Part shown: positions 1 to 15,783 of the stretch, piece by piece | Position numbering within the stretch: position 1 is the stretch's first letter | How the letters are laid out: each line of letters starts with the position of its first letter | From: Persicirhabdus sediminis | GTDB lineage: Bacteria > Verrucomicrobiota > Verrucomicrobiia > Verrucomicrobiales > Akkermansiaceae | Assembly (NCBI RefSeq): GCF_016595495.1 | Contig: NZ_JAENIM010000039.1 | Coordinates: forward strand, 1-64,000 | Direction: 5' to 3' | DNA length: 64,000 nt | Made by a program: the position numbers and the translations under genes | The notes under the pieces: generated by a model | Databases searched by the model: none | What the model was told of the DNA's origin: nothing | The model's input: the letters and a program-made list of their open reading frames with translations, nothing else

Positions 1-286
1 ACGGTATTTTCAGAGCACTTCCAGCCTCTGGCCTGTAGCTCTTTAGTCATTCGAGGCGAGCCATAAACCTTAAGGTTGTGGTCTTTATGTATGGCTTTAA
101 TTTCTGCAAGCAATTCTAACTGAGTGCATTTTCTCTGAGTTGACGGCTGGCTAACATAGTACCTATAACCAGCTCTTGAAACGCCGAAAGCTGCGCACAG
201 CTCTAGCTCCGAATAGTTACCCTGATCCTTCATTTTCTGAACTAGCTCATATTGTTGTGAGGATCGTTTCCCAATATGAGCGCAGC
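1..286 (-). CDS. IS3-family transposase OrfB, N-terminal part (partial)
   Basis: Translating the minus strand one frame back from OrfA gives an open frame running off the left edge. It reads YELVQKMKDQGNYSELELC, then VSRAGYRYYV, then YGSPRMTKELQARGW. This is the N-terminal helical region and the start of the integrase-like part of IS3/IS150 OrfB proteins. The catalytic DDE residues would lie beyond the window. No good start codon precedes the domain, so it is probably made as an OrfAB fusion by -1 frameshifting. The frame is uninterrupted as far as it can be seen. Confidence 0.85.
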
Positions 287-577
287 CTTTTTTAGGATTT
301 CTTCACGGCGCTGTGACTTGGCTAGCTCTTGGCGCAGCCTCCTAACTTCCTCAGCTAACTCTGCGACCGAAGCCTCCTTGGGGACTTCGTTCATGCCCTC
401 GCCTGAGGCTCGGTCACTCTCTGCGTCCCCAAGGAGCTTCTTTTTCCAGGCATAAAATTGGCTGGGCGAGATTTGGAAGTCTCTACAGATTTGGGTTACG
501 CTTTTTGCACTACTCAGAAAGTAATCGATGACTTCCTGCTTAAATTCTTCGCTATGTCTTCTACGTGGTTGTGTCAT
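242..577 (-). CDS. IS3-family transposase OrfA
   Basis: This 111-residue protein has the HTH_Tnp_1 fold that recognises the element's terminal repeats. It opens with RRRHSEEFKQEVIDYFL, and a helix-turn-helix covers residues 25-50 (VTQICRDFQISPSQFYAWKK). A coiled coil with a leucine-zipper pattern follows at residues 72-96 (VAELAEEVRRLRQELAKSQ), used for dimerisation. Its last codons overlap the orfB frame. Length and domain order are typical for the family, and there are no internal stops. Confidence 0.92.
   Translation of the reverse strand: MTQPRRRHSEEFKQEVIDYFLSSAKSVTQICRDFQISPSQFYAWKKKLLGDAESDRASGEGMNEVPKEASVAELAEEVRRLRQELAKSQRREEILKKAALILGNDPHNNMS
287..293 (-). promoter_or_regulatory. 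Programmed -1 ribosomal frameshift heptamer A AAA AAG
   Basis: On the minus strand OrfA reads CTA AAA AAG near its end, placing the classic slippery heptamer A_AAA_AAG in the correct phase for a -1 shift. After the slip the frame continues into OrfB without a stop. This is the established mechanism for making OrfAB transposase in IS3-family elements. The frame relation was checked by hand; use of the site is inferred. Confidence 0.75.
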
Positions 578-656
578 GGTCTCTATGATTTCTTGGTATC
601 AATTAGGAGACCTGCTGGCTAGTATTTTGGGGAAGTTCAGTCTCATTTTTTTCTGT

Positions 657-776
657 GCCTAACGTAAAGCTCAACCGCTGCGCATCAGAGAGGGAATAAA
701 CTTAGAGCAATGTGAAAATGTGACTATTCCACCGGCTCAAAGGCGGTTAGCATTCGGATGCGGTAATTTGTTAGGA
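657..776 (-). repeat. attC-like site (subfamily I) after the leftmost cassette gene
   Basis: The plus strand starts with GCCTAAC (657-663) and ends with GTTAGGA (770-776), just before the stop codon of the gene at 780-1088. On the minus strand the outer site is GTTAGGC, a perfect GTTRRRY core. The inner arms ACCGC (674-678) and GCGGT (760-764) pair, and GCGCAT (680-685) partly pairs with the stretch before the right arm, leaving unpaired bases. The length of 120 bp resembles Vibrio VCR sites. Confidence 0.7.
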
Positions 777-779
777 TAG

Positions 780-1088
780 TTAGTCTTGAGGTGATTCGAC
801 AAATAATATCACGTCGTACGGCACCCAACGCTCAGCATCCGTGTCCGCCACAACAATTCCTCTCTTGCCGACCTCAACTAGAATTCCGCTCATTGATGTC
901 ATGGCTCCATTAATATTATTTGTCTTGGGGGGAATAGGTAGATTACTGGCGGCACCTAGTGAATCACGTCTAAATTGAACGGTCACCTTCTTATCCACTA
1001 AATTGGGTAAGTGAGATGGTTCATCGCGATTACAGCTGCTCAAAGCAACAGCCAATACACCGTATAATGGTAGTATTTTGAATTTCAT
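780..1088 (-). CDS. Small putative lipoprotein, cassette gene, function unknown
   Basis: With the ATG at 1088 the product has 102 residues and starts MKFKILPLYGVLAVALSSC, a signal peptide with lipobox LSSC, so it is probably a membrane-anchored lipoprotein. A GTG 21 bases further upstream (1109) would overlap the attC-like core ACCTAAC of the preceding cassette, which argues for the ATG. The mature part has no motif I recognise; it may form a small beta domain (residues 30-100, with VTVQFRR and GILVEVGKRGIVVAD). It lies between two attC-like sites. The function is unknown. Confidence 0.7.
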   Translation of the reverse strand: MKFKILPLYGVLAVALSSCNRDEPSHLPNLVDKKVTVQFRRDSLGAASNLPIPPKTNNINGAMTSMSGILVEVGKRGIVVADTDAERWVPYDVILFVESPQD

Positions 1089-1107
1089 TCTATAGGAAAA
1101 CTTGGCC

Positions 1108-1200
1108 ACCTAACAGTGGCGGTTCGTAGTAATTGGTGGTGGATTTAACATTTTTCAGAAATCCAATTAGCCGAGGCTACGATCATTATTTTTGTTGAGC
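1108..1200 (-). repeat. attC-like site (subfamily II)
   Basis: The plus strand reads ACCTAAC (1108-1114), a perfect RYYYAAC, through to GTTGAGC (1194-1200), a perfect GTTRRRY. Two inner arm pairs match: TCGTAG (1124-1129) with CTACGA (1177-1182), and TGGATTT (1140-1146) with AAATCCA (1159-1165). A loop of about 12 bases and unpaired bases on one side complete the picture. This is the best-formed hairpin of the array. A second copy at 6221-6311 is nearly the same sequence. Confidence 0.75.
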
Positions 1201-1348
1201 TGGCGGGCGGCATGTTTAGTCAGATTGAAAGGAGTCATGATGATGGTGGGCTGCGCTCTTGGTTAGTAGAGGAAATTTTTCAGTTTTCAGTGAACCTAAT
1301 GCAGGGTGATAGAATTCTCTAATGAGTCAATGGATAACTAGCTGATAG
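1201..1348 (-). repeat. Conserved spacer following attC-like site, copy 1 of long direct repeat
   Basis: This stretch lies between the attC-like site and the 3' end of the gene at 1429-2445. It is closely similar to 6312-6457; shared landmarks are GGGCTGCGCTCTTGGTTAG and CTCTAATGAGTCAATG. Weaker relatives occur at 2542-2600 and 3166-3200. I see no open reading frame or terminator in it. It could be a conserved 3' untranslated region carried by related cassettes. Confidence 0.6.
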
Positions 1349-1428
1349 TCTGCTTGATCTCACTTTGCTAACTATAATCATCTAGCGGCCTATCCATTTT
1401 GCCGACGGAGCATCGAGTGGTACTGCTT

Positions 1429-2445
1429 TTAGTTTTTTGTATAAAACAATCTCTCATTGGCTTGAAACCATTTGGCCCGGTTTTCATAATCGCTTATCAA
1501 CTTTCGGATGTCTGCCAATTGGGCTTTACCAAAATGACCTCGGCTAGCTTCACGATTGTTGAAAAAATTGCCTGGCTGTAGCTCCACATCTGCCTCCATG
1601 GTTGCGAGGTTGACGGTTACGGAGTATGAGCTACCGGCCACCTCATTTGATTGAAATGAATAGGCTCTGCCATTCACAGTGGCGTCCAATGCTATTGAGA
1701 TCTCCTTTAAGAGGTCGGCTACCCAGTCTCCGCTGAGACTTCCAGTTTCTTCACCTTCTTCGGAATAAAGGCATAATTCGTGCTCTATACGATATTCTGG
1801 ATCACCTTCAGATGAAAAGCTAGTAGCTGCAACCTCGTAGCCAAGTCCTTTTCCTGACACTGTACCAATCGTCGAAATCAAGTTATAGCTGCTAGATCGA
1901 GGTGGTCTAGCCTCATCATTTGGCTCGGGGAGAACCTCATCCAACAGTAATTTTTTGTACCATGCTTCTGCGGATCTTGCTTGTGCCAGCGCTGCGCGTA
2001 CTTTAGCGGCTTCAGCGGGAACAAATTCCGCCTGTTCTACACCTCGGCTCATGCGCACTAACTTCTCACCTCCAACATTTACCACTTCATAGATAGTCTC
2101 TTGATCTCCTCTGAAAGTTTCAGTCGTTACCACATGCCGAAATTCCTCACCTTCCTGAGCGGCATCACCAGCTGCTAAGAACGCTTCAATGTCATCATCT
2201 GTTAGCATGCGCTGCCATGATTCGAATGTATAACAGTACACCCGAATCGAGCTTGAGCCATTTGGCTTGTCAGCACTTCGCGAAATACTAACCGAGACAT
2301 TCAAGCGGTCTCCTTCATCTCTACGAGCAAACCAATCATTAGTCTCCACACTTACATAGAAGTCTTTGTATGGAATCAAATCGCCTGCAAATAGAGGCAG
2401 TGATAGAACTAAGGAAGCTATTATGGACAATTGAGAAGTCTTCAT
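1429..2445 (-). CDS. Secreted protein of unknown function, cassette gene
   Basis: The product has 338 residues. MKTSQLSIIASLVLSLPLFAG is a cleavable signal peptide ending near residue 21, so the mature protein is periplasmic or extracellular. The rest is acidic and looks mainly beta-stranded, with no transmembrane segment and no motif I recognise. It is the largest gene of the array. The ATG at 2445 is the only sensible start. On its 3' side is the conserved spacer and attC-like site at 1108-1348. Its function cannot be stated. Confidence 0.7.
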   Translation of the reverse strand: MKTSQLSIIASLVLSLPLFAGDLIPYKDFYVSVETNDWFARRDEGDRLNVSVSISRSADKPNGSSSIRVYCYTFESWQRMLTDDDIEAFLAAGDAAQEGEEFRHVVTTETFRGDQETIYEVVNVGGEKLVRMSRGVEQAEFVPAEAAKVRAALAQARSAEAWYKKLLLDEVLPEPNDEARPPRSSSYNLISTIGTVSGKGLGYEVAATSFSSEGDPEYRIEHELCLYSEEGEETGSLSGDWVADLLKEISIALDATVNGRAYSFQSNEVAGSSYSVTVNLATMEADVELQPGNFFNNREASRGHFGKAQLADIRKLISDYENRAKWFQANERLFYTKN

Positions 2446-2454
2446 ATTTTCAGA

Positions 2455-2541
2455 GCTGTAATGGGTTATCGTAGTGATGGCGTGATTGATTCTAGCTGTG
2501 GCTAGATTAGCCGAGCTTTGAGATCATGCATTGCGCTTAGC
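2455..2541 (-). repeat. Degenerate attC-like site (subfamily II)
   Basis: This stretch aligns with the sites at 1108 and 6221 over TCGTAGTGATGG and GATTAGCCGAGC, and ends GCTTAGC where the others end GTTGAGC. The left core is poorly preserved (CTGTAAT region). It is followed by the same conserved spacer motif, GGGCGGGATGTTTAGCTAG. It is likely a decayed recombination site behind the gene at 2676-3107. Confidence 0.5.
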
Positions 2542-2675
2542 AGACGGGCGGGATGTTTAGCTAGATTGATCGTGTTCATGCTGGGGCGGGAGCCCCTTAG
2601 CTAGCGGTGGTAAGTTTTCATAGAATGAAGCCAGCAGCTAACATAGTTGAGCGCTAGCCATGATGCCTGTTGGCG

Positions 2676-3107
2676 TCATTTGCTGTCATTGTCTTTTTGG
2701 AGCGTCTCTAACTTCTTCTTTTCTCGTGCTTTCTGACTCGCTGCGCCACCAATGTTCCAGTTCATGAGATGATTAATCGCTTCGATAGTTTCCTCTGCGC
2801 GATGGGAAACTTGCGGCACTTCATCAGCGAGCGCACGGAGCAGCACGGGCTTCACTATATTCTTCTCTATTCGCCCCTTAAATCTCGCTGCATATTCAAT
2901 ACCGAAAAGGGAGTTGGCGCGGACACTAGGGTCTGAATGTTCTGAGAGCCTAACGCTGATGTCCTGGATAAACCGCCAGTTGTCGTGGTGAAAGCCGAGT
3001 TCAATCGGGATCATTAGAAGCCGCTCGACGTCATTTTTCTCTATCGCCTCGAAGACCTCCTTCTCGGTAATTGGCTTAGGTTCTTCATAGATGAGCTGCG
3101 GGTTCAT
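2676..3107 (-). CDS. HEAT-repeat-like helical protein, cassette gene
   Basis: This 143-residue cytoplasmic protein has no signal peptide. Residues 15-120 are helical with a repeat-like pattern (SDPSVRANSLFGIEYAARF, then KPVLLRALADEVPQVSHRA), which resembles tandem HEAT helices that bind other proteins. Small proteins of this build occur among immunity proteins of polymorphic toxin systems and in cassette arrays, but I cannot assign a partner here. The C-terminus is lysine-rich and probably disordered. No toxin gene is evident next to it. Confidence 0.65.
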   Translation of the reverse strand: MNPQLIYEEPKPITEKEVFEAIEKNDVERLLMIPIELGFHHDNWRFIQDISVRLSEHSDPSVRANSLFGIEYAARFKGRIEKNIVKPVLLRALADEVPQVSHRAEETIEAINHLMNWNIGGAASQKAREKKKLETLQKDNDSK

Positions 3108-3115
3108 ATTTCTTC

Positions 3116-3165
3116 TGGCTTAAGACTAGGGGGGAGGGGCTATATCTCAGTGAGCTGGGTTAGCT
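3116..3165 (-). repeat. Short, degenerate attC-like site
   Basis: The right end GTTAGCT (3159-3165) is followed by a spacer alignable with those after the other sites: GGCGCGCTAGG, then TTTAGCTAGATTG and TTCATGATG. The left core is near GGCTTAA at 3117. The block is only about 50 bp, so it may be internally deleted. It precedes the start of the gene at 2676-3107. Confidence 0.35.
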
Positions 3166-3360
3166 GGCGCGCTAGGTATTTAGCTAGATTGTTAGTTTTT
3201 CATGATGTGTCGGCAGTTCGCTAATTTTGTCAGCCGAAAGTTTTCTGTTTTGCAGGTTAAAATGCCTTGCTAACATTATTATAGTTTTTGAAATATGATA
3301 GAAATTAATAAATCGTCAATATAATATCTAGCGGTTAGTTTGCTTGCATGCATCCGCTGG

Positions 3361-3942
3361 TTATGTGCTATTAGGCGATGACAGTTGGCTACATACAGCT
3401 CTAAAAGTGTCATTGGCTCGCTTCGCAGGGAACGAGGCTACGAATCCTGTGCGTTCGCAGAAGTTTGACTTGCCGTCCGCTGAGCAGACGGTGAAAATCC
3501 CGTGAGCCCTCCCAAACTGAGCAGGCAACCTTTGCCGGCAGATCACATCCGCCACGTCAGGAGGAATCGCAGCTTGGTGGACTATGAGCGTGGCGGTGTA
3601 AGTAACACTAGATCGAAACCACCAGGGTGATAAATGCAATCGATCTGTATGCGTTCGACTAGCGATGTGAAGGGTAGAAAGCAAGGCCATCGACGGCTCG
3701 ACGATCTCTGGCAATCGGTAAATGTAGAATCGGTCTACGTATGAAAGCAGAGACCGACCGCCGCGTTTGCTATAGAGGCGGGTGGCTGTATGTGAACCGA
3801 TAGAAACGTCCTTCTCGCATATGAATCTGTGCTGTTCAAACGTTGCGTGCATCATTTCAAGCACGTCTGGCTGATCGAGGGGCGTGCGAACGCCCGAGTC
3901 TGAAAGTGCTACATCTGCGGTGGGCGATTCGTAGGGATTCAT
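3361..3942 (-). CDS. MNPYESP-type protein of unknown function, cassette gene
   Basis: The product has 193 residues and begins MNPYESPTADVA. An MNPY(E/Q)SP start is common in hypothetical proteins of Planctomycetes and related PVC bacteria, so a PVC origin of this cassette is plausible. There is no clear signal peptide or membrane segment. The middle section (residues 60-130) looks beta-rich, and three cysteines lie in the C-terminal half. I recognise no domain. Base composition appears higher in G+C than that of the neighbouring cassettes, which fits independent acquisition. Confidence 0.65.
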   Translation of the reverse strand: MNPYESPTADVALSDSGVRTPLDQPDVLEMMHATFEQHRFICEKDVSIGSHTATRLYSKRGGRSLLSYVDRFYIYRLPEIVEPSMALLSTLHIASRTHTDRLHLSPWWFRSSVTYTATLIVHQAAIPPDVADVICRQRLPAQFGRAHGIFTVCSADGKSNFCERTGFVASFPAKRANDTFRAVCSQLSSPNST

Positions 3943-3964
3943 TTAGATCGAGTAGTCGTCTTGC

Positions 3965-4056
3965 TGAGAACAGTATTGATTCGTTGTAATACTTACGAAA
4001 ATTAACTCATCTGTGGCGAGCTTAGCCGAGGCAGCCATCAATCTAAATGGTTCAGC
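3965..4056 (-). repeat. attC-like site (subfamily II) of an apparently empty cassette
   Basis: The plus strand reads TGAGAAC (3965-3971) through to GTTCAGC (4050-4056), with arms ATTGAT (3975-3980) and ATCAAT (4037-4042) pairing perfectly. The internal GCTTAGCCGAGGC matches the sites at 1108 and 6221. Only about 34 bases separate it from the next attC-like site at 4091, too few for a gene. Confidence 0.6.
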
Positions 4057-4090
4057 TTCTATTTTGTGTAATTCCATTATTTTAATTTCA

Positions 4091-4203
4091 GTCGAACGTA
4101 AAGGACAGGCATCCGCCAGTGGGTTTCGTTGTTCTGTTGCTTTTTAGAGTTTTACGGGCGGGTTAGCGGGTTGTCCTGCTCCGGCTGGTTTGAAGAGTTA
4201 GTG
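4091..4203 (-). repeat. attC-like site (subfamily I)
   Basis: The plus strand starts GTCGAACGTAAAGG and ends GTTAGTG (4197-4203), directly before the stop codon of the gene at 4204-4497. The left part shares GAACGTAAAG with the site at 657 (TAACGTAAAG). The internal arms are weaker than in the other copies. Confidence 0.5.
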
Positions 4204-4497
4204 TTAAAATTGCTGAGACACTCGAAAGAAGAAGGCTGCCCCAATGATGAAAAGCACTGGTGTCGAATACAGCATCAGCCTGACTTTCTTCAGCTTAGCT
4301 TTCTCTTCTTCGTTTTTCTCCTCGCTAATAGCTTGCGCAATCATCTTGAAATCCCGGAAGTGATGAGAAAACCAGCTGTATGGATACCCCTTCTTTTTTA
4401 GGGCGAATTTAGCTCGATACCCAATTGCATTGCAAAGGAAGATAACAAACATGCCGACAATGACCAACGGTGAGTATTCAAAGGGAGGGTGATTCAT
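4204..4497 (-). CDS. Small two-helix membrane protein, cassette gene
   Basis: The product has 97 residues with a membrane helix at 9-27 (PLVIVGMFVIFLCNAIGY) and another near 74-92 (MLYSTPVLFIIGAAFFF). Between them is a charged region with KKKGYPYSWFSHHFRDF. Similar short proteins with a GY-AKF-L--KGY--SWF pattern are, from memory, frequent among uncharacterised integron-cassette and proteobacterial proteins; no function is known. The stop codon touches the attC-like site on its 3' side. It is probably an inner-membrane protein. Confidence 0.65.
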   Translation of the reverse strand: MNHPPFEYSPLVIVGMFVIFLCNAIGYRAKFALKKKGYPYSWFSHHFRDFKMIAQAISEEKNEEEKAKLKKVRLMLYSTPVLFIIGAAFFFRVSQQF

Positions 4498-4506
4498 TTG
4501 ATTTTT

Positions 4507-4615
4507 TTCGAACGTCTTAGCTCACAGTATCCCCGATCGGGAGAGAGCGTTGATTTCAGGGTTAAGGGGTGAATGGTCATGGAAAATTCGACTCGGTGCG
4601 GATTAGCGGTTAGTT
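4507..4615 (-). repeat. attC-like site (subfamily I) overlapping a gene end
   Basis: The plus strand runs from TTCGAACGTCTTAGCTCA to GTTAGTT (4609-4615). The left part aligns with GCCTAACGTAAAGCTCA of the site at 657. The stop codon of the gene at 4603-5040 lies inside the right end of the site, as is common for cassette genes. Confidence 0.5.
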
Positions 4616-5040
4616 GATGCGGCTTGTTCTGCCTCTTGTGTGCCTGGCAACGATTCCTCACGCCAAAGTTCGGCATCTGGGGATACAAAAACCACTGAGC
4701 GTGAATCTGGACTCCACTTGATCCAGTCTTCAGCAGATCCCATGCGGAAATTAAGTGGCATCCGTTCGACTCTTATTCTTCTAGACCTTATGGTCTCGTT
4801 ACTCGCTGTTGATACCACGAACTCGTAGTAGGGAGGCAATCCAAGCTCCTTATCTGCATACTTATTTTTTATGTGGGCAGTCATTTTCTGATCTGGCGAA
4901 TCAAGGAAGCATCCGCCTCCGTCTGGGCCTCGCTCTATCGCCTCACCCACTGTACTCAGTATGAATTTTAGCGTGATGCATCCATAAATGATAGTACTAA
5001 GGATTATCCCACTCAGAACGCCGAAAATATACTTTTTCAT
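4603..5040 (-). CDS. Membrane-anchored WSPDSR (TolB-like) protein, cassette gene
   Basis: I choose the ATG at 5040, giving 145 residues starting MKKYIFGVLSGIILSTIIYGC. That is an N-terminal membrane helix, possibly with a lipobox ending in Cys21. The GTG at 5061 would overlap the attC-like core GCCTAGC. The C-terminal half holds IKWSPDSRSVVFVSPD, the PD40/TolB beta-propeller blade signature, but there is room for only one or two blades. The gene at 5664-6212 encodes the same motif. The function is unknown; it may be a cell-surface binding domain. Confidence 0.65.
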   Translation of the reverse strand: MKKYIFGVLSGIILSTIIYGCITLKFILSTVGEAIERGPDGGGCFLDSPDQKMTAHIKNKYADKELGLPPYYEFVVSTASNETIRSRRIRVERMPLNFRMGSAEDWIKWSPDSRSVVFVSPDAELWREESLPGTQEAEQAASTNR

Positions 5041-5052
5041 TTTCTGCAGAAT

Positions 5053-5166
5053 GCCTAGCACACCAACCGCTGACCACTCAGCGCGCTACGTTTTTGGGGT
5101 TGGATTGAAATTGTCATGAAGGGTATTAATTCGGCGGGGCGCGGATGGGGACTGCACTTGTTAGCC
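5053..5166 (-). repeat. attC-like site (subfamily I)
   Basis: The plus strand reads GCCTAGC (5053-5059), then ACCAACCGCTG matching the site at 657, and ends GTTAGCC (5160-5166), four bases before the stop codon of the gene at 5170-5625. The right part CGGATGGGGACTGCACTTG aligns with CGGATGCGGTAATTTG of the first site. A G in place of the first core A (CTAGC) suggests slight decay. Confidence 0.55.
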
Positions 5167-5169
5167 AAG

Positions 5170-5625
5170 TTAGTTTTGAGAGAGTGACTTTATGAACTGC
5201 TTCGGGTTTTGAAGTAGTATAGTTAGGTTTGAACTGGATCCATCATCGTGAGTGTATTTAAGATGCGTTGCGTTACCTCTTTGTTCGACTGAAACGATGT
5301 TTTTGAGTGGAACTATGTGATCTAAATCAAACTTCTCGTTGAGTAAATTAAATGGAAATGGAGTAGTGATAGCCAAAACATTTTCGGTCACTAGCACCGT
5401 TAAGCAACGTGAAGCTCCACCCAATCGCGTAAAGATTGTTTTATGTGATGAGCCTGATGCTTTGAATTCCGAAAACACCACGCCTTCATCTGTTGGATTG
5501 GGGAATGTTAGCCCTTTCTTTTTTCGTTTCCATACTAAATAGCTGAAGCAGACTACATACCATAAAGTAATCAAGCCGAAGCAGAGGGCAAAGTTATTAA
5601 AGACAAATTCAAGAATGCTCTTCAT
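5170..5625 (-). CDS. Membrane-anchored PH-like domain protein, cassette gene
   Basis: The product has 151 residues. One membrane helix covers residues 12-32 (FALCFGLITLWYVVCFSYLVW), then KRKKK faces the cytoplasm. The soluble part (residues 45-148) is beta-rich and ends in an amphipathic helix (NPKQFIKSLSQ). The pattern CLTVLVTENVLAITTPFPFNLL is one I associate with an uncharacterised bacterial family with a PH-like fold. Its function is unknown; a membrane-proximal sensor or scaffold is possible. It is framed by attC-like sequence on the 3' side. Confidence 0.65.
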   Translation of the reverse strand: MKSILEFVFNNFALCFGLITLWYVVCFSYLVWKRKKKGLTFPNPTDEGVVFSEFKASGSSHKTIFTRLGGASRCLTVLVTENVLAITTPFPFNLLNEKFDLDHIVPLKNIVSVEQRGNATHLKYTHDDGSSSNLTILLQNPKQFIKSLSQN

Positions 5626-5663
5626 GTATTTATTTAGGCTATGCTAACATGTTCTGCTCGTTT

Positions 5664-6212
5664 TTACTTGAGATCGACGACCTTGGACAGCTCCGCAGAT
5701 CCACCATAAATATCCAACTTTATTTGGTAACGATACCAGTTTTCAGGCGAATCCCTCGGATTGCTTACACCATCCAAAAGGCTTCCCTCGCTGGAGAACG
5801 TCAACGTGCTGCCTGTCCACGTGATCTGACGAGCAAAGCTGTAGCGACCACCACTGACCAAATTGTGACGCCCCAACAAATTGAGTCGATAGTCGGGAAT
5901 CTTGACCTGTGTTACGCCGCCGGCCTCGAATCGATAAATTTCCAAACTTACTGTTGTCTTGGTTCCTCTGGTAGTTACTGCGAGATAGCGTGAGTCCGGT
6001 GACCAAACGATCTCCTCATACCCCTGTCCTCCGACGCCAGATGAGAAGGCCTGATAAAGAACTTTTTTGTCGGAAGTCCTTATGAAATCGACGTCGGACT
6101 CGGAGGCTCCAGCCTTGCGATATTCAACAGCAAAGCTCTTGTTAGGTGACAGCGTTTGCGAATGCGAAGTTGGCGCACTCAGAAGGATGACGAATAGCGT
6201 GGCGAGTCTCAT
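5664..6212 (-). CDS. Secreted WSPDSR (TolB-like) protein, cassette gene
   Basis: The product has 182 residues with a signal peptide MRLATLFVILLSAPTSHSQ. Residues 19-35 (LSPNKSFAVEYRKAG) and 64-80 (IVWSPDSRYLAVTTRG) resemble consecutive PD40/TolB-type propeller blades. The rest is beta-rich. It shares WSPDSR with the neighbouring cassette at 4603-5040, though they are not close copies. Only about 38 bases separate it from the gene at 5170-5625, with a CTAAC but no full attC-like site, so these two genes may travel as one cassette. The function is unknown. Confidence 0.65.
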   Translation of the reverse strand: MRLATLFVILLSAPTSHSQTLSPNKSFAVEYRKAGASESDVDFIRTSDKKVLYQAFSSGVGGQGYEEIVWSPDSRYLAVTTRGTKTTVSLEIYRFEAGGVTQVKIPDYRLNLLGRHNLVSGGRYSFARQITWTGSTLTFSSEGSLLDGVSNPRDSPENWYRYQIKLDIYGGSAELSKVVDLK

Positions 6213-6220
6213 TTTTGTTA

Positions 6221-6311
6221 GCAGAACTGTATTGGTTCGTAGTAATTGGTGGTGGATGTAACATTTAAGAAATCCGATTAGCCGAGGCTTGTATCATTAT
6301 TTTTGTTGAGC
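6221..6311 (-). repeat. attC-like site (subfamily II), second near-identical copy
   Basis: The plus strand runs GCAGAAC (6221-6227) to GTTGAGC (6305-6311). Apart from the left core it matches 1108-1200 over nearly its whole length, sharing GGTTCGTAGTAATTGGTGGT and ATTATTTTTGTTGAGC. The inner GGAT/ATCC arms are retained. It starts nine bases upstream of the start of the gene at 5664-6212. Confidence 0.7.
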
Positions 6312-6613
6312 TGGTGGGCGATAAGTTTAGCTAGATTGATAGGTTTCATGATGATGGTGGGCTGCGCTCTTGGTTAGTAGAGGAAAGTTTTCAGTGTTCA
6401 GTGAAGCTAATGTAGGTTGCTAGAAATCTCTAATGAGTCAATGAAATAGTTAGATTGTGCCGCTCAGCGAGGCTCAGTGCATGAGATGAGCTAGGTCTTG
6501 GGCGGTTCCCAAGGCTACGATATGTGGTCACCTAGTGGCTGGCTAGAGCTCAGCGCGAGTAGAAGTCAGAGCTGTGAATGCCAATGTGTAAACCATGTCC
6601 TGAACTTTTACCG
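6312..6613 (-). repeat. Spacer: copy 2 of long direct repeat, then non-coding DNA
   Basis: Bases 6312-6457 match 1201-1348 closely (about 145 bp). Together with the attC-like heads the repeat is about 235 bp. From 6458 to 6613 the sequence is not shared with the other spacers and has no open frame I would support. It contains short inverted repeats but no clear terminator. Confidence 0.6.
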
Positions 6614-6928
6614 TCAATTGGTATATTTTCTGGATAATTGAGTGACTGTCTGAGCAGAGCAAACTTTACAGGTGTAGGTGACAGGATTCTTGTTAGTCAC
6701 CTTTAAGCTGCCATCACACTCTTCTTTCGAGCATTTTAATGCTAGGATTACGCCAAAAATATACCCAACGATTAGCTGCGACAGGATGACTGCAACAGCG
6801 AGGCATGGCATAAAAAAGCTGTTAAGTGCCAGTTGAGATCTATCAATCAGAATCACGGTTAAGATTGCAACGAAGAAGCTGCAAAACATTGATATTTGTT
6901 TAATAATGTAGTGAGAGATTGGAGTCAT
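6614..6928 (-). CDS. Small membrane protein with C-terminal zinc-ribbon-like tail, cassette gene
   Basis: The product has 104 residues. Two membrane helices cover about residues 8-30 (IKQISMFCSFFVAILTVILI) and 36-62. The cytoplasmic tail holds CSKEECDGSLK and then CKVCSAQT, a paired-cysteine arrangement like a small zinc ribbon. An internal methionine at residue 13 is a possible later start. I recognise no family. The conserved spacer and attC-like site follow its stop. It could be a membrane-tethered metal-binding adaptor. Confidence 0.6.
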   Translation of the reverse strand: MTPISHYIIKQISMFCSFFVAILTVILIDRSQLALNSFFMPCLAVAVILSQLIVGYIFGVILALKCSKEECDGSLKVTNKNPVTYTCKVCSAQTVTQLSRKYTN

Positions 6929-7383
6929 AATTATTCCTTATTTATAGAGTCACGGATGAAATGTAATTATTTCTAGCGTCGAGATTATTCGAGGATATCA
7001 CTATGACTTTATTCTAGCTTTGAAAAGCCTGAGGGAAATCTCTAATCAGTCAATGAATAACTAGCTGATAGGCGCTTGGTTTTACCATTTTGCCTCCCTC
7101 CTCATTCACTCTAAGTGTTAACGGAGACAGGGATGATAGAGATCTAACGTATGGCATGTTCAATAGATTGGTGGTCAGCTAGCTGGAGGTCTCGGCTCTA
7201 GCTCGTACGTCTTTTGGGAAATTATTAAACAGGCAATAGCATTGGCTTGTTGCTTCTAGCTCACAATTGTATGGTTATTCATTAGAAATACTAGACGCCG
7301 CAGAGGTGGTGGTGGCTGGCGCTGGGGCCTGGTAGATCAAGATTGTTAGCTATTTCGTTGACTAGGCGTTAAATCTCAGTGAG
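6929..7383. other. Gap without a gene; cassette remnant
   Basis: No convincing gene is present in 455 bases on either strand. Bases 7035-7110 align with 1312-1405, the sequence just 3' of the gene at 1429-2445, including CTCTAATCAGTCAATG, AATAACTAGCTGATAG and CCATTTTGCC. In the other copy a minus-strand gene follows; here none does. I read this as the tail of a cassette whose gene was deleted or decayed. ATCTAAC at 7143-7149 and GTTAAAT at 7368-7374 fit core-site consensus sequences. Confidence 0.45.
7286..7362 (+). repeat. Repeat family III, copy 1, upstream of plus-strand cassette gene
   Basis: This stretch aligns with 8066-8140 over about 75 bases. Shared elements are CTAGAC, AGAGGTGG, GGCTGG, CTGGGGC and a final GTTGAC. 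It is followed by GTTAAAT (7368-7374), a perfect GTTRRRY core, nine bases before the ATG at 7384. It may be a third, plus-oriented type of recombination site. Confidence 0.5.
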
Positions 7384-7926
7384 ATGGCTGTAGACCAAAA
7401 GAATCTATATCTAATGAGTTTCAAGAAGATCGTATTAGGAGTACTCGGCATTGTGGTAGTTGGCGGATTAATACTTTTGATTCTTATTTATCAATTCTTA
7501 ACAGGCATGATAGATGAGGAGGTTTCACAACATGATTTAGGCGTTGCTTATATGAGCTCAATTGATGAACAGGAAATGGTCATCATCATCAGAGAGTCAG
7601 ATATACTCATGGAGAAGTGTGACCCAAATAGCTTACCAAAAAACATGGGAGAGTTCTCTGAGGAAAAAGTTCCAGAACGTTGGGCTAATATTGGCGTTCA
7701 GGGGATCAGATATACAAACGAATCGGTTGTCTACTATTTTTGCGGCGGAGGCATGAGAGAGAGAACCCTTTTGAGAGTTCTAAAAAGTGATGACGAGAGC
7801 CACCTAGTACATGCTAGCTACCGAGATCAGACGGAATCCGTGCAACTTCACCCAAAAGCATCGGACGGTCCGCCCATAGAAACGGAGGTTCCAACAATGG
7901 CCCAGCCCGGGTCATGGCAGGAGTAA
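7384..7926 (+). CDS. Single-pass membrane protein of unknown function, cassette gene
   Basis: The product has 180 residues. A membrane helix covers about residues 15-40 (IVLGVLGIVVVGGLILLILI), with a short cytoplasmic N-terminus, so the remainder is periplasmic. A second in-frame ATG at 7417 (MSFKKIVLG) is an equally possible start. The soluble part has no recognised motif; a CGGG near residue 120 and an acidic character stand out. It and the next gene are on the plus strand, opposite to the rest of the array, and both are flanked by repeat family III. Confidence 0.65.
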   Translation: MAVDQKNLYLMSFKKIVLGVLGIVVVGGLILLILIYQFLTGMIDEEVSQHDLGVAYMSSIDEQEMVIIIRESDILMEKCDPNSLPKNMGEFSEEKVPERWANIGVQGIRYTNESVVYYFCGGGMRERTLLRVLKSDDESHLVHASYRDQTESVQLHPKASDGPPIETEVPTMAQPGSWQE

Positions 7927-7930
7927 TATC

Positions 7931-7980
7931 AGAGAGGCTCTTAGCTGGTGCTGCGGCCAGCTTTCAATATTCGCTAGATA
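7931..7980 (+). repeat. 3' flank repeat, copy 1
   Basis: The sequence directly after the stop of the gene at 7384-7926 aligns with 8946-8993 after the next gene. Shared elements are CTCTTAGCT, GCGGCCAGC against TCGGTCAGC, and TTTCAATATT followed by CTAGAT. Identity is roughly 70 percent by eye. Confidence 0.5.
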
Positions 7981-8065
7981 GCAGTTCAATGGTGTTAGTG
8001 ATTGTTTAAGAGATGGCTTAAGCCGAAGCGCCTAGTTGTTATAGAGCAAGATTGGCTAAACGTAA

Positions 8066-8140
8066 AAATGCTAGACACTGAAGAGGTGGGGGGCTGGAGA
8101 CTGGGGCTAAGTTAGTAAGACTAAACTTTATTTAGTTGAC
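8066..8140 (+). repeat. Repeat family III, copy 2
   Basis: This is the partner of 7286-7362, again placed upstream of a plus-strand gene. It is preceded by GCTAAAC (8055-8061), which fits RYYYAAC. The block contains the first bases of a longer alternative reading frame for the next gene, supporting the later start at 8220. Confidence 0.5.
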
Positions 8141-8219
8141 CTTAGATTCTAATAAAAGCAGTTTTCATATATCAACATTTCGAATATTCGTTTGTTGGTT
8201 ACTGATCCACATTGAGACA

Positions 8220-8891
8220 ATGAAATACACCCTTTTACTATTAGCGTCATTTACTGGGCTGGCGCACTCAGCCACGACATTTATTGATGCTGACTTTGAA
8301 GCTCCACATGTTTTGAATACAGCCCCAGCGACAGGCTCTGGTATCGGGCTAGTAAGTACTATAGATGGTGGTAGTCCGTTGATTGTCACAGGTGAACCAG
8401 CCTCAGGAAATGCCCTATCCTTACAGACTGGAGATGCGGTCATATTTGAGGTAGGTCAACGATTCAGTAGTTATGAGATTTCTTATGACTTAACATTTAT
8501 GAATTTCGAAGGCACTGCGTCTGAGTTTACGTTTTTCATTGATACACCTATAATCAGAAGGGTCGATATAGGTTCTTCGGAAACTCAAATTTTTATTCCT
8601 GGATCTAGTAGGAATGCGGAATTATTGATTTTAGATGATACTAATTATTCAATTTTGCATGAAGTTGATACTGCCGCAGATACTTGGGAGATCTCAGTAA
8701 ATGGGAGCTTACTTTATAGTGGTCAGATTGGGGCTGATGGTGTTGAAATGATTAGATTTTATAATATTGGAAGCGCTGGTGCTGAAGTGAAGTTAGATAA
8801 CTTGCTACTTACTGGGAATGCGATACCTGAGCCAAATACAAGCATTTTGCTTTTTGTGGCCTCAATAGGGTTATGGAAGCGAAAGAGATAA
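8220..8891 (+). CDS. PEP-CTERM surface protein
   Basis: Starting at the ATG at 8220 the product has 223 residues and begins MKYTLLLLASFTGLAHSA, a typical signal peptide; an ATG at 8136 would place 28 odd residues before it. The C-terminus is a PEP-CTERM tail: IPEPNTSILLFVASIGLWKRKR, that is PEP, a hydrophobic helix and a basic end. Such proteins are exported and processed by an exosortase, which is not in this window. The body looks like a beta-sandwich (residues 20-190), as in carbohydrate-binding surface proteins. It sits at the right end of the cassette array. Confidence 0.8.
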   Translation: MKYTLLLLASFTGLAHSATTFIDADFEAPHVLNTAPATGSGIGLVSTIDGGSPLIVTGEPASGNALSLQTGDAVIFEVGQRFSSYEISYDLTFMNFEGTASEFTFFIDTPIIRRVDIGSSETQIFIPGSSRNAELLILDDTNYSILHEVDTAADTWEISVNGSLLYSGQIGADGVEMIRFYNIGSAGAEVKLDNLLLTGNAIPEPNTSILLFVASIGLWKRKR

Positions 8892-9164
8892 TATCAGGCT
8901 CATATTCGGGCTGCCTCCTCGCGTCTAGGCATGAGTGATGCCTGATAGACTCTTAGCTTATTCTCGGTCAGCTTTTCAATATTAGCCTAGATGGCAAGCT
9001 GCCAGCTAGCTGGAATAGCTGGCGGGAACGAAGAGTGAATGGTGAGGAGATAGGAGTGAGCCCCAGCTAGATCTAACCTCGCCAGCTGGATTGGTGGGCT
9101 TTCACTCTTCTCTCTTTAATCTTCACTCTTCTGCCGCGCAGCGGCCTCTGGCCGTTCTCTTGTT
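8892..9164. other. Right boundary of the cassette island; repeat-rich gap
   Basis: The gap holds the second 3' flank repeat (8946-8993), a cluster of AGCTGG/CTAGCTGG words (9003-9090), and two oppositely oriented GAAGAGTGA / TCACTCTTC blocks (about 9030-9059 and 9102-9132). The second block is a copy of the sequence at 35638-35668. I see no gene in it. It marks the change from accessory DNA to housekeeping chromosome at ftsY. Confidence 0.55.
9102..9132 (+). repeat. 31-bp interspersed repeat, copy 1
   Basis: The block starts TCACTCTTCTCTC and ends CTTCACTCTTCT. Its reverse complement occurs at 35638-35668 with a single mismatch. A looser relative lies at 36237-36274. All copies sit at or just beyond gene 3' ends. 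Confidence 0.8.
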
Positions 9165-10016
9165 CTAGATGATTTCGCTAACAAACTCGTCTCTATCAAA
9201 GGCTTTGAACTGTTCTGGTTCTTCGCCGAGGCCGATGTAGCGTGGTGGGATGCCGAGTTCTTTCTGGATGATGACACCCACGCCACCTTTTCCTGATCCA
9301 TCTAACTTTGTGATAATCAGACCGTCCAAATCAATGGCTTTGTTAAATTCTTTGGCTTGAACGAGAGCATTGCCGCCAGTGGTAGCGTCGACTACAATGA
9401 GGTTCATGTGCGGAGCGCTATCGTCTTGTTTGCTGATGGTGCGGTGGATTTTGCCCAGCTCTTCCATCAGGTTGTGGCGGGTATGAATTCGCCCAGCAGT
9501 ATCGCAGATGAGGAATTGGTAGCCGTCGGTAATGGCTTTTTGGTGCGCTTTATAACAGACCGATGATGGATCAGCGTTAGGTGGACCTTTGACCATGTCA
9601 ATTTCCAGCCTTTGGCTCCAGCGCTCGAGCTGCTCTACGGCGGCGGCGCGGAAGGTATCAGCTGCTGCTAACAACACCGAGTGACCTTGGTTTTTGAGCA
9701 GCTTAGCTAGCTTGGCGGTGGAGGTGGTTTTGCCGGTGCCATTGACGCCAACAACAAGAATCACAAATGGTTTGCCATCTTCGCGTGGGGCAATGGGGGC
9801 GGGGTCAGCTGGTAGAATTTCAGCAATGTGGCGACGTGTGACATCAATGATGTCGTCGGCATCGATTTTGCGACCGAGGTTTTGCAGCTCGTCGACAATT
9901 TCCATGCTTGTGCGCGCTCCGAGGTCGGCCCCAATGAGTTCGGCCTCGATTTCTTCCCAGTCGATATCAGCACGATTGGTGACCTTATTGTAGAGTTTCT
10001 TAAAAAAACCAGCCAT
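9165..10016 (-). CDS. ftsY: Signal recognition particle receptor FtsY
   Basis: This SRP GTPase receptor brings ribosome-nascent chain-SRP complexes to the membrane. I choose the ATG at 10016, giving 283 residues that begin MAGFFKKLYNKVT; the first 13 residues of the longer frame do not resemble the family. The N domain covers residues 1-75. The G domain has P-loop GVNGTGKTTS, DTFRAAA, DTAGRIHTRHNLMEEL and TKLDGSGKGG, and the protein ends in the closing GLGEEPEQF-AFD motif. It lacks the long acidic A domain of E. coli FtsY. It stands alone, divergent from the plus-strand gene at 10151. Confidence 0.96.
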   Translation of the reverse strand: MAGFFKKLYNKVTNRADIDWEEIEAELIGADLGARTSMEIVDELQNLGRKIDADDIIDVTRRHIAEILPADPAPIAPREDGKPFVILVVGVNGTGKTTSTAKLAKLLKNQGHSVLLAAADTFRAAAVEQLERWSQRLEIDMVKGPPNADPSSVCYKAHQKAITDGYQFLICDTAGRIHTRHNLMEELGKIHRTISKQDDSAPHMNLIVVDATTGGNALVQAKEFNKAIDLDGLIITKLDGSGKGGVGVIIQKELGIPPRYIGLGEEPEQFKAFDRDEFVSEII

Positions 10017-10150
10017 AGACAGGAGCGGTTTAGCGCCCCAGCTGAGAGCGGGCAAGCATTATCACGCCTCATGTTTCTAGCTGGGAAAATTAATCAATGA
10101 AATGACCTAGAGTTGCCATCCGTATGGGATAAGGTAGTATCCGCAAGAGC

Positions 10151-11431
10151 ATGCAGAAAGATTCACAGAGGCGCAGTGCTAGCGTCGGTTCGACCTATCA
10201 GTTACCACAACGTAGAGGTGTTGGTAAATGGGCCTTTTTGGCCATTATTGCAGCGATTTTGCTGCATGTGTTGGCTTATATCGCTTTTAAAAATATCCAC
10301 ATTTTACTGCCTGCTGTGGAGAAAAGGAAAGAAGTGCAGACCAAAGTGGTGCGTACTAAAGAGATTGAAGTCGCCGAGCCGGGGCCAGAAAAAGAATGGA
10401 AAGCCAGTGATTCTGGTGAAATGGAGCCTGAGCCTGTGGCGATTGATGAAATCGAGGTGCTCGCTGAGCTGCCTGAAATGGACCTCGATATTCTGCCTGA
10501 CGTGAAAGAGCTGCAAGTGCCGCTAGAAGCAGTGGCTCCCGCCGCTGAAGGTGAGTTGCTAGCTGAAGCTATCGAGTTTGTTGAGGCGCCAGGCATCAGC
10601 ATGGACATCCCAGATTTAGGCAAAACGGAAGATTATTTTGACCGCGTGGCGGAGGGGCAAATTGCTGTCGACCCCGGTGGCCGGCTGGCTGATTCATTTG
10701 ATCCAGACGAGCTGCTAGAGGAAATGAAACGCAAAGGTGCTGATGGCTCCGCTGCTGATGGTGTACTGCAAGGTTTCACCACGCTGGACGATATGGCGCG
10801 CATGAGCGGCAGCCAGCTGCTTAGTGCCAAGGCGCTGATTGGTAGTGATTTGTTATTTGATTTCAATAAAGACCAACTCCGCCAGAGCGCGCGTGTTAGT
10901 TTGATGAAAGTTGCTTTCCTCATTGATAGACACCCTAATATGTTCTGCATCATTGATGGCCATACCGACCTTGTCGGCGGCGAGTCATTCAACCTCGCTC
11001 TCAGCGAGCGCCGCGCTGAAGCGGTGAAAAGCTGGCTGGTAGAATCCGTGCAAGCAGACCCAGAACGCATCATCGTTAGAGCATTTGGTAAATCGAAGCC
11101 GATTGTGCTAGAAGGAGATCAAGATGCTCAGGCACCTAACCGCCGTGTTGAGATTCGCATGCGTACTGAGCTAGCGGATTTGGAAGAAGATAAAGCTCAG
11201 GAGCTGCCAGAAGCTCAGGCTGATGAGCCAGAAAATAAAGCCATTTTAGTGAGACCAGCGCCACCTGAGAATGTGGCGGTTGTAGTAGAAGACCCAACAC
11301 CGCGCGCCACCGTCGTTGAAGAAGACGCTGATGTGGCTCCAGCTGCTGTGGAGGTGATAGAAGTAGAGCCACCACGCCGCGCCGTTCCCGTTGAGGAAGA
11401 TATTCCTGGCCGTGCATTGATTGTCGAGTGA
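10151..11431 (+). CDS. TonB-like N-terminus with OmpA C-like peptidoglycan-binding domain
   Basis: The product has 426 residues. A single membrane helix at residues 26-46 (WAFLAIIAAILLHVLAYIAF) leaves a long acidic, proline-rich periplasmic stretch (50-200) like those of TonB proteins. An OmpA-like domain covers about residues 235-340, with DLLFDFNKDQLRQSA, IIDGHTD, NLALSERRAEAV and APNRRVEIRM, the residues that hold diaminopimelate in peptidoglycan. The tail (345-426) is again acidic and repetitive (V-E-D-P). It probably links the inner membrane to the cell wall. A strong terminator follows. Confidence 0.8.
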   Translation: MQKDSQRRSASVGSTYQLPQRRGVGKWAFLAIIAAILLHVLAYIAFKNIHILLPAVEKRKEVQTKVVRTKEIEVAEPGPEKEWKASDSGEMEPEPVAIDEIEVLAELPEMDLDILPDVKELQVPLEAVAPAAEGELLAEAIEFVEAPGISMDIPDLGKTEDYFDRVAEGQIAVDPGGRLADSFDPDELLEEMKRKGADGSAADGVLQGFTTLDDMARMSGSQLLSAKALIGSDLLFDFNKDQLRQSARVSLMKVAFLIDRHPNMFCIIDGHTDLVGGESFNLALSERRAEAVKSWLVESVQADPERIIVRAFGKSKPIVLEGDQDAQAPNRRVEIRMRTELADLEEDKAQELPEAQADEPENKAILVRPAPPENVAVVVEDPTPRATVVEEDADVAPAAVEVIEVEPPRRAVPVEEDIPGRALIVE

Positions 11432-11550: not shown

Positions 11551-12981
11551 CTAGCGGACCTTTTTTCGCCGCATCATGACTAGTCCGGTGATAGAAACTA
11601 GGATGATCATGAGTGCGCTGAGAATGGAGACCACATCGCGGGTGTCTTTGCTGATGACATCGAGGAAATGAAGTTTGTGTAGGTTGATGAAAATCAAAGC
11701 ATCTACCACCTGCGCAGGTTTGCTACGCATGCTGAGATGAGAGTTCACCGTATCTACCGTGTATTGTTGGTATTCTTCTCCACGATAGCTTATGCGCCAA
11801 ACTGGTAGTCGCTTATAGATAAAGCCATAGTCTCTAGCAAATCGCGTGATCAATCTGCAGTCGCTGATAGATTCAGCTGGGTATTGGCTGAACTCACCAG
11901 CTAACTCACGTGCGTAGTCGGCATCGCTGTAGTCAGTGAGCTCACCAGTCATGGTATTTACATAGACGCTGGCCGCTGGATTTTGGCGGTCTAATAGCTG
12001 CACACGATAATAGCTAGAGTTAGCATTACTCGCTAGGCTGATTTGACTGGCGAGCTTACCTTGCGCCTTAAGTTGATCAATTACTGGCTGGATATGACTT
12101 TCCAGCTGGATCGTAGGCACTGTGCGTTCACTTGCCCTTAAGAAGCTTCTATCAAAACGTGTCTTTGCTGCAATTTGCCAGATAGCAGAGAAGCTGAACA
12201 TCAGATAGAATAAGCTGATGATAATGCCCAAGGAGCGGTGCAGTTTGCGGCTTAAGCCTAACTTTCTAGTTTGACCACTACTGGTGCGGTTCTTGAAAAA
12301 CACCCTCGTGACTATGCCTGAAACCCCAACAAATAGTGATAGGACTGAGCACAGCGCAACGATGATGATGCGTAGCCAGCTGGATTCATCACCTAGAAAA
12401 CTCCACGTGTGAGTGTAGCTGAATACCAATAGATAGAGGCGTTTGGCTGGTGTATCATGTGTCGCTAACTTGCTTGTTGCCGTATCGACGTAGACGTGCT
12501 GACCATTCTCAAACACCACTTTCCAGACTGGTAGCAGGCGATTGATGTAGCGGTAGGTTAGCGTGAAGTCTTCGACGAGTTCAGCCGACACGATATTTTC
12601 AGCTGGCTGACCAGAATAGCTACACGCTAGCTGGCGTGCATAACTATTCTGGCCGTCATTGATTTCAATCCCTGTGAGTACGCCGAAGTACCATTGCTTA
12701 TCGTTTCTATCTATCAATTGGTAACAATGAATGTCGTCTAACTCAACGATTCTCAGCTGGCGTAGCTCAGCAATACCGGCGGCTTCAGCAATTTCAGCTA
12801 CTGGTTTGGCGTGTGGCGGGACATCGAGTGCGTGTGGCTTGATGAATGGATTCTGAATTTCGGCTCGAAACCAGTTAGCCATCAAAGGATGGAGCAGGCC
12901 ACTGAATGACCAGAGTATTACTGGCACCGCCATGAGCAGGGCAATCTTGCGATGCCATTTGAAAAATTTGCTTTTCATCAT
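11551..12981 (-). CDS. PepSY-associated transmembrane protein
   Basis: The product has 476 residues and is an inner-membrane protein of the PepSY_TM type, found next to TonB-dependent receptors and thought to serve reductive release of iron from siderophores or haem. Helix 1 is at residues 12-34 (IALLMAVPVILWSFSGLLHP). There are paired helices near 205-225 and 250-270, and one near 450-470 (VVSILSALMIILVSITGLVM), ending in MMRRKKVR. Two periplasmic PepSY-like regions (about 50-180 and 285-420) contain the repeated ...YARELA... and YR-NRLLPVW / YKRLPVW motifs. It starts 9 bases after the receptor stop, so it is surely cotranscribed. Confidence 0.82.
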   Translation of the reverse strand: MMKSKFFKWHRKIALLMAVPVILWSFSGLLHPLMANWFRAEIQNPFIKPHALDVPPHAKPVAEIAEAAGIAELRQLRIVELDDIHCYQLIDRNDKQWYFGVLTGIEINDGQNSYARQLACSYSGQPAENIVSAELVEDFTLTYRYINRLLPVWKVVFENGQHVYVDTATSKLATHDTPAKRLYLLVFSYTHTWSFLGDESSWLRIIIVALCSVLSLFVGVSGIVTRVFFKNRTSSGQTRKLGLSRKLHRSLGIIISLFYLMFSFSAIWQIAAKTRFDRSFLRASERTVPTIQLESHIQPVIDQLKAQGKLASQISLASNANSSYYRVQLLDRQNPAASVYVNTMTGELTDYSDADYARELAGEFSQYPAESISDCRLITRFARDYGFIYKRLPVWRISYRGEEYQQYTVDTVNSHLSMRSKPAQVVDALIFINLHKLHFLDVISKDTRDVVSILSALMIILVSITGLVMMRRKKVR

Positions 12982-15247: not shown

Positions 15248-15643
15248 CTACATGAATTGTGGAGGCGGACTGGGGACGGAGTCCGCCCACAGTGAGGCAA
15301 AGCGTTGCGAAAAGGGGGCTGCAAAAGCTAAATGTTTAATCTGCTTTGCGCTAGTGAGATGATGATTATCTAGCTGGATAGACCACTGGGGGAGCTTAAT
15401 TTTAAGCGATCTATCATTGTTGGGAGCTGGCTGGTTCTTTTCTTCTTGCTCCTTTAGTGCACTGACAGCCTTACACATCGGGCAGGGGTGGTCGCCGTCG
15501 AAGGTTTGGCTAAGCGCCTGTTGCACAGAACCGGTTTGCACAAAATAGCTAGGAAGCATGCCAGCCCAAGCACATAGCTGCAGCATGGCTCCTGAATCAC
15601 CACTGCCTAGCAAGGCGATGACAAAGACCATCAGCGTTGCCAC
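15248..15643 (-). CDS. Small protein with CPMC motif, first gene of the receptor operon
   Basis: The product has 131 residues. The N-terminus is a hydrophobic helix (MATLMVFVIALLGSG, probable signal anchor), followed by LQLCAWAGMLPSY and then FDGDHPCPMCKAV. The C-x-x-C pair suggests metal or haem binding, or a thiol-disulfide role. Small proteins with an HPCP-C motif occur in Verrucomicrobia beside TonB receptors; none has a known function to my knowledge. The start codon is GTG at 15643, with an ATG four codons downstream as an alternative. It precedes the receptor by about 200 bases on the same strand. Confidence 0.65.
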   Translation of the reverse strand: MATLMVFVIALLGSGDSGAMLQLCAWAGMLPSYFVQTGSVQQALSQTFDGDHPCPMCKAVSALKEQEEKNQPAPNNDRSLKIKLPQWSIQLDNHHLTSAKQIKHLAFAAPFSQRFASLWADSVPSPPPQFM

Positions 15644-15783
15644 CAGCCTGCGCAGGTGAGTGAATAGATTTTGCTGTAGCTTGGTGAGAATAAGTAGGTT
15701 TTAAAACCTTCTACGGAGAGGTCAAGAGGATAGATTAAGTGCTTGTTTTATCTTACCTCTGTCACCTAGCAAGGTTCGTTAGC

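Follow-up and report, generated by a model that had tools for sequence, protein, structure and literature searches.

The window, a stretch of 64,000 nucleotides from Persicirhabdus sediminis, is the start of contig C39, where a row of genes lies between the end of an IS3-family insertion sequence and ftsY (9165–10055). The row comprises 11 small genes, two of which (7384–7926 and 8136–8891) lie on the plus strand and the other nine on the minus strand. Ten of the 11 were searched and none exceeds the Pfam or PADLOC cut-offs, and the eleventh is without an NCBIfam match. The picture of small, unrelated genes separated by spacers of common sequence, drawn in an earlier note on this DNA, is borne out, with 88% identity between 1153–1332 and 6264–6443 and further copies near 2457–2620, 3160–3325, and 3968–4040. 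No att site is seen at the two plus-strand genes, and the repeats behind them (7927–8135) have no further copy in the genome. An Rfam search of the window yields no att-related family.

Table 1. Predicted features between the contig start and position 7078 of the window; a slash marks the crossover point.
Feature	Position	Strand	Basis or detail
IS3-family insertion sequence end	1–639	-	orfA 242–577, orfB cut by contig start; NCBIfam NF033516
Classical attC of cassette 780–1088	657–776	-	R'' TCCTAAC, R' GTTAGGC, ending TTTACG/TTAGGC
Cassette gene, no assigned function	780–1088	-	ORF; family search
attI copy	1114–1345	-	crossover G at 1114; cassette start TTAGGT
Gene between attI copies, no assigned function	1429–2445	-	ORF; family search
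Diverged attI copy	2457–2620	-	edge CAG/CTCTGA
Gene, no assigned function	2676–3107	-	weak HEAT-repeat similarity, below cut-off
attI remnant, right end lost	3156–3325	-	repeat similarity; left-edge motif by eye
Cassette gene, no assigned function	3361–3942	-	ORF; family search
Right half of attI copy	3971–4040	-	edge CTG/TTCTCA
attC of gene 4204–4497, decayed	4091–4194	-	R'' TTCAAAC; R' ACG/TTCGAC
Cassette gene, small membrane protein (by eye)	4204–4497	-	ORF
Decayed attC of gene 4603–5040, poor fold	4507–4632	-	R'' GCAGAAC+AAG, R' ACG/TTCGAA
Cassette gene, no assigned function	4603–5040	-	ORF; family search
Decayed attC of gene 5170–5625	5046–5166	-	GGCTAACAAG ... GTGCTAGGCA/TTCTGC; same attC type as L037 17000–17723
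Cassette gene, no assigned function	5170–5625	-	ORF; family search
Collapsed attC, hairpin deleted	5643–5657	-	R'' GCAGAAC joined to R' GTTAGC; R'' matches attI edge GTTCTGC at 6227
Cassette gene	5664–6212	-	WD40-like PD40 match below cut-off
attI copy	6227–6455	-	edge ACAG/TTCTGC; 88% identical to 1114–1345 over 180 nt
Gene upstream of first complete attI copy	6614–6928	-	ORF
Truncated attI copy, upstream module only	7030–7078	-	repeat similarity

The array at 657–7078 is real integron material without an integrase, as the earlier note had proposed for its cassettes. Classical attCs in the same arrays as the shared repeat are approximately 115–128 nt long, start with NNNNAACAAG, and end with ACG/TT, and many of them form strong hairpins. 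A naive attC scan with any AAC and GTT arms gives no enrichment in the window over the control; the sites reported here come from our own scanner, to which the motifs AACAAG and ACGTT had to be added for it to work. The attC at 657–776, one of two sites singled out in the note, holds, and its 3' end is almost equal to that of the attCs of the relative G012 (L106). The other, at 1108–1200, does not, being the right arm of the approximately 240-nt repeat, which lacks a consensus fold. Additional sites absent from the note are the decayed attCs at 4091–4194, 4507–4632, and 5046–5166 and the hairpin-less one at 5643–5657. Meanwhile, decay is apparent in the window, where the last of these has lost its entire hairpin and the attI copies at 3156–3325 and 7030–7078 are truncated. 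With this scanner, the window contains at least two attCs and no nearby intI, the definition of a CALIN (657–776 and 4091–4194, in addition to the decayed 4507–4632 and 5046–5166), and no intI adjoins the array as in a complete integron. The CALIN label of the note is thus apt for attCs without intI, but the plain label hides the attI platforms that these arrays retain.

The note had also placed the array in the distal part of a chromosomal integron with intI to the left of the window and suggested the flanking chromosome as the place to find IntI. No intI match exists on C39, and tblastn of IntI against the window is negative; the only intact intI found is situated on contig C16 (983–1894; TIGR02249, 346.7 bits against a cut-off of 265). 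Furthermore, every cassette in the window is oriented leftward and points away from ftsY; what the window contains is therefore the upstream (proximal) portion of one array rather than the distal portion of an integron. The assembly consists of 47 draft contigs, its arrays break at IS3 copies, and it fixes neither the order of the arrays nor the left neighbor of the window. The IS3 end of the window also opens contigs C8 and C21 with the same sequence, and C14, as well as the start of C15, is bordered by IS3 orfB ends.

A sequence model of the approximately 240-nt repeat, run against the genome, gives 41 matches at E<=0.1 and 30 at E<1e-13, distributed over 12 contigs. The copies share a median identity of 76%, and mutations (GTC, GCT) affect several of their edges. 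The right edge is sharp, with ...ATTACTACGAACCAATACTG/TT followed by unrelated sequence, and the repeat of this genome ends in TACGAACCAATACTG/TT (AATACTG/TT). A short conserved ORF within the repeat (MKTINLAKHPARQL...SLG and a stop) was considered and rejected in the absence of a coding signature, the substitutions being spread as 103/110/105 over the codon positions and 20% of them synonymous versus 23–29% expected. A simple scan reveals no sigma-70 promoter above chance in the attI copies or next to intI.

In an integron cassette, the first bases, TTNNNN, complement the R'' of the attC that belongs to it, so that cassette starts can be located without assumptions on the site in front. Across 15 sites, the TTNNNN at the repeat edge agrees with the R'' of the next classical attC at 49 of 60 variable positions, some of the pairs (the second in C14 and window 776) having been placed by eye, where shuffling gives an expected 27.3 and none of 100,000 shuffles is as good. 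With attCs chosen blind to R'', 32 of 40 positions match the repeat edge (p=1.5e-5). In the window, GTTAGGT (1114) pairs with TCCTAAC (776) at three of four positions, and TTCTGC (crossover G at 6227) pairs with GCAGAAC (5657) at all four. Mismatches to the register exist as well: no match is seen for the pair at C15:16633, and an attC in C14 agrees with its downstream edge only. The agreement between the repeat edge and R'' indicates that cassettes begin at the repeat.

The position and the ending of the repeat point the same way. On C16 the right arm of the repeat (88–228) is located between the 5' end of intI and the first cassette, 309 nt separating its right edge from the start of intI; the cassettes there run to the end of the contig with intI behind them, the direction seen in any integron. 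On C42 a copy (60124–60257) adjoins an intI remnant (343 nt at 78%) and is followed by six classical attCs. At nine related intI loci, the first cassette was placed through the complement of its R'', and the site before it ends in ACTAATACTG, ACTAATAACACTG, ACTAATAAAACTG, CATTTAACTG, and similar sequences (ACTG/TT or a close variant), whereas the attCs there end in ACG/TT; in most of the nine this attI lies about 154–299 nt from the intI start. AATACTG/TT of the repeat corresponds to ACTAATANNACTG/TT of the relatives (ACTAATA..ACTG/TT). Taken together, the attI-type ending, the position beside intI and the intI remnant, and the cassettes that start there identify the repeat as attI. On this sequence evidence, the shared spacers (e.g., 1114–1345 and 6227–6455) are attI copies, not attCs; the equation of spacers with attCs in the earlier note applies to some spacers but not to these conspicuous ones.

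Identifiable cassettes stand in attI/attC register at about 15 sites of the genome. The usual order is attI, gene with attC, gene with attC, flank, and the next attI, each attI being followed by one to three cassettes, and contig C14 carries the order of attI, cassette, and flank three times in succession. The units that separate a final attC from the following attI start exactly at the attC crossover (GACG/TTCACCCC in C46 and GACG/TTCCCCCC in C21), which is as expected if this sequence was once the right flank of an attI. Arrays in C8 and C21 end before chromosomal genes in similar flank sequence. The attI arms at C21:2423, C46:65196, and C46:66672 are 94–97% identical and each is followed by different genes, indicating that the cassettes arrived after the copies arose.

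These features make it likely that the genome contains a chromosomal integron with many attI sites, in which the single IntI of C16 serves, or served, about 30 dispersed attI copies in trans, the CALIN of the window being headed by attI. The copies would have arisen by amplification of a unit of flank and attI. Circular cassettes, each consisting of a gene and a folding attC and captured in trans by the C16 IntI, would then have been inserted between the G and the TT of ...AATACTG/TT at each copy, resulting in an attI, one to three cassettes, the flank, and the next attI. Given the median identity of 76% and the mutated edges, many copies may be relics.

For part of the copies, the most serious competing explanation is ordinary loss of intI. 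Several independent integrons of the same lineage would have lost intI by deletion and kept attI, as in ordinary CALIN formation, and the copies would be relics, with no activity in trans. C42, with its intI remnant, attI, and six attCs, has exactly this structure, and the extra attI copies in G012 are only 69–76% identical to the intI-adjacent attI of that genome. However, about 30 copies exist here, many within one array at every one to three cassettes, C42 alone among the fetched copies has an intI remnant beside it, and the attIs that are 94–97% identical hold different, well-preserved cassettes. Overall, intI loss is conceivable but less likely.

Alternatively, attI-bearing units could be mobile themselves, as a second kind of cassette in which attI replaces attC and which is inserted by recombination of the attI of the circle with an attC; such a process would favor an alternation of attI and attC as in C14. 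This alternation is seen in C14 and parts of C15, and units without a sense gene are bounded by G/TT on both sides at C46:66207–66672 and C21:3897–4561. Yet amplification of flank and attI followed by normal insertions yields identical borders, the C21 units include sequence similar to the flank at which the C8 array ends, and elsewhere the alternation is not strict, which leaves mobility unlikely. Tentatively, the two processes might be combined: one IntI would fill dozens of attI copies in trans, and attI units may travel as cassettes of an attI type, recombining with attC and so seeding new landing sites within their own arrays.

Two related alternatives are quite unlikely: the repeat could be a long attC that folds poorly and is peculiar to this lineage, or it could be the 3' end of one gene-less cassette that was multiplied and of which a copy by chance comes first beside intI. 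Such a site would share the G/TT crossover, as the repeat does, and the repeat accommodates a weak hand-drawn stem (R''/L''/L'/R'); this 93-nt stem has 70% of its cells paired versus 18–44% in slid versions, with covariation little beyond that of shuffles. At C46:66207 and C21:3897, moreover, the repeat-bearing unit starts exactly at an attC crossover, but this is also the product of a normal insertion into attI. Folding of the candidates, as proposed in the note, favors many classical attCs but not the repeat: RNAalifold predicts 0 pairs for the family consensus, which shows no attC hairpin of R''/R' and L''/L', while the attC consensus of G040, a textbook array, folds at -18.2 kcal/mol with 7 compensated pairs. 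Candidates for R'' inside the repeat fit neither the R' of the repeat itself nor the edge before it. In addition, at least four of the genes checked in front of a repeat carry an R''+AAG of their own that agrees with the start of their cassette, which rules out the repeat as their attC. The edge of the repeat is ACTG/TT, like the attI of relatives, rather than ACG/TT. With neither a fold nor an R'' match, the repeat was rejected as an attC family of its own. Finally, an origin of the repeat as the non-coding terminus of an IS110/IS1111-attC type element that had inserted at attC crossovers is very improbable and was rejected. Truncated IS110-type transposase starts do adjoin attCs in C15 (where the sequence was read) and lie at the end of the C42 array, but the sole longer IS110 copy (C19) has no adjoining repeat and the repeat shows no linkage to a DEDD transposase, no intact IS with the repeat at its end was found, and the repeat occupies the attI position beside intI at two loci.

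Integrons with attI sites away from intI also occur among relatives. IntI above the cut-off is present in 24 of the 58 genomes from the order, to which G012 and G040 also belong. G040, a complete chromosome, carries a 96-nt attI copy, 95% identical, at 240 kb from intI, and G012 carries four further attI copies on its contigs C4, C6, and C13. No intI similarity was found within 1.5 kb of these extra copies in G040 (one) and G012 (four), and in four of the five cases the cassette that comes next has an R'' match of 4/4. G020 and G034 each have a single attI and no duplicates. The DNA repeat itself was not found in relatives, nor does the module-B profile find their attI, the sequence being too diverged to detect by sequence alone. 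Extra attI sites occur in other genomes too, but of the five that were examined, this one alone has dozens of them.

Integrons typically possess one attI close to the integrase (PMC9024848, IntegronFinder 2.0). The present system resembles a sedentary chromosomal integron in its IntI, its attI with a first cassette divergent from intI, its folding attCs, and its many small cassettes without assigned function, but differs from it in having about 30 attI rather than one, one to three cassettes per attI, and arrays at several places away from intI. Like a CALIN, it has attC cassettes without a neighboring intI, but its arrays contain attI platforms. Off-target events of IntI1 use short attI-like motifs (PMC10127599), and such secondary sites share with the reading of many attIs filled in trans the use of attI-like sites away from intI; however, those motifs arise by chance, whereas here approximately 240-nt homologous copies carry whole cassettes. 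G012 and G040 likewise combine an intI-adjacent attI with remote copies bearing cassettes in register, with one to four extra copies there compared with dozens here. In the titles and abstracts of open-access papers listed by the searches, no description was found of an integron with multiple attI, a duplicated attI, or a second attI.

If attI has multiplied and is used in trans, some arrays now called CALINs would be live capture platforms, and if a promoter travels with attI, every cassette would stay near one and position-dependent expression would look different. Because attI is not detected outside class 1 by IntegronFinder (PMC9024848), systems with many attI sites would escape the standard finder. 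The match between R'' and the cassette start offers a simple and general way to find the attI of any integron.

Two different antisense ORFs occur in units that carry an attI copy. The first, ending in MQNHICCCNSNKGITRSVLRELVYVMG directly before its stop, recurs at the left end of these units and at array ends; copies beyond integron arrays were looked for, and none was found. The second, beginning with MAKILARKVVLEDGRPAFSDPQG, is present in two copies (95%) inside two such units of contig C15, and tandem repeats rich in CCAGCCAGCCAC adjoin the duplicated ORF.

Coordinates of the features on contigs of the draft genome and in the window
Feature	Location	Coordinates
Antisense ORF, MQNHICCCNSNKGITRSVLRELVYVMG	C46	66205-66360
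	C21	3896-4045, 6351-6494
	C8	443-547, 2546-2692
	C14
	C9
Antisense ORF, MAKILARKVVLEDGRPAFSDPQG	L037 (C15)	about 12459-12755, about 15360-15644
attC without hairpin	window	5643-5657
	L037	about 15790
ACCTGCT repeat	L039 (C21)	6770-6870
Truncated transposase start	L037	about 10900-11080
	C42	54671-54796
Lone attI copy	L154 (C45)	56737-56825

Two attCs have lost the entire hairpin, leaving R'' and R' fused, with deletion endpoints at AAC/GTT or at direct GACG motifs. Truncated IS110/IS1111-type transposase starts lie within or directly behind attCs, a known behaviour of attC-targeting insertion sequences. On C21, a perfect tandem repeat of the 7-bp unit ACCTGCT is flanked by the array end on one side and a methyltransferase-like gene on the other. 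The attI copy on C45 is situated amid ordinary chromosome. A start codon comes after its edge, CTG|ATCTGC, and the copy is possibly a single-cassette site.

In the complete related genome G040, a large classical superintegron with approximately 18 or more homogeneous attCs (L118, C1:2974000-2992000) provides a useful reference array for the order.
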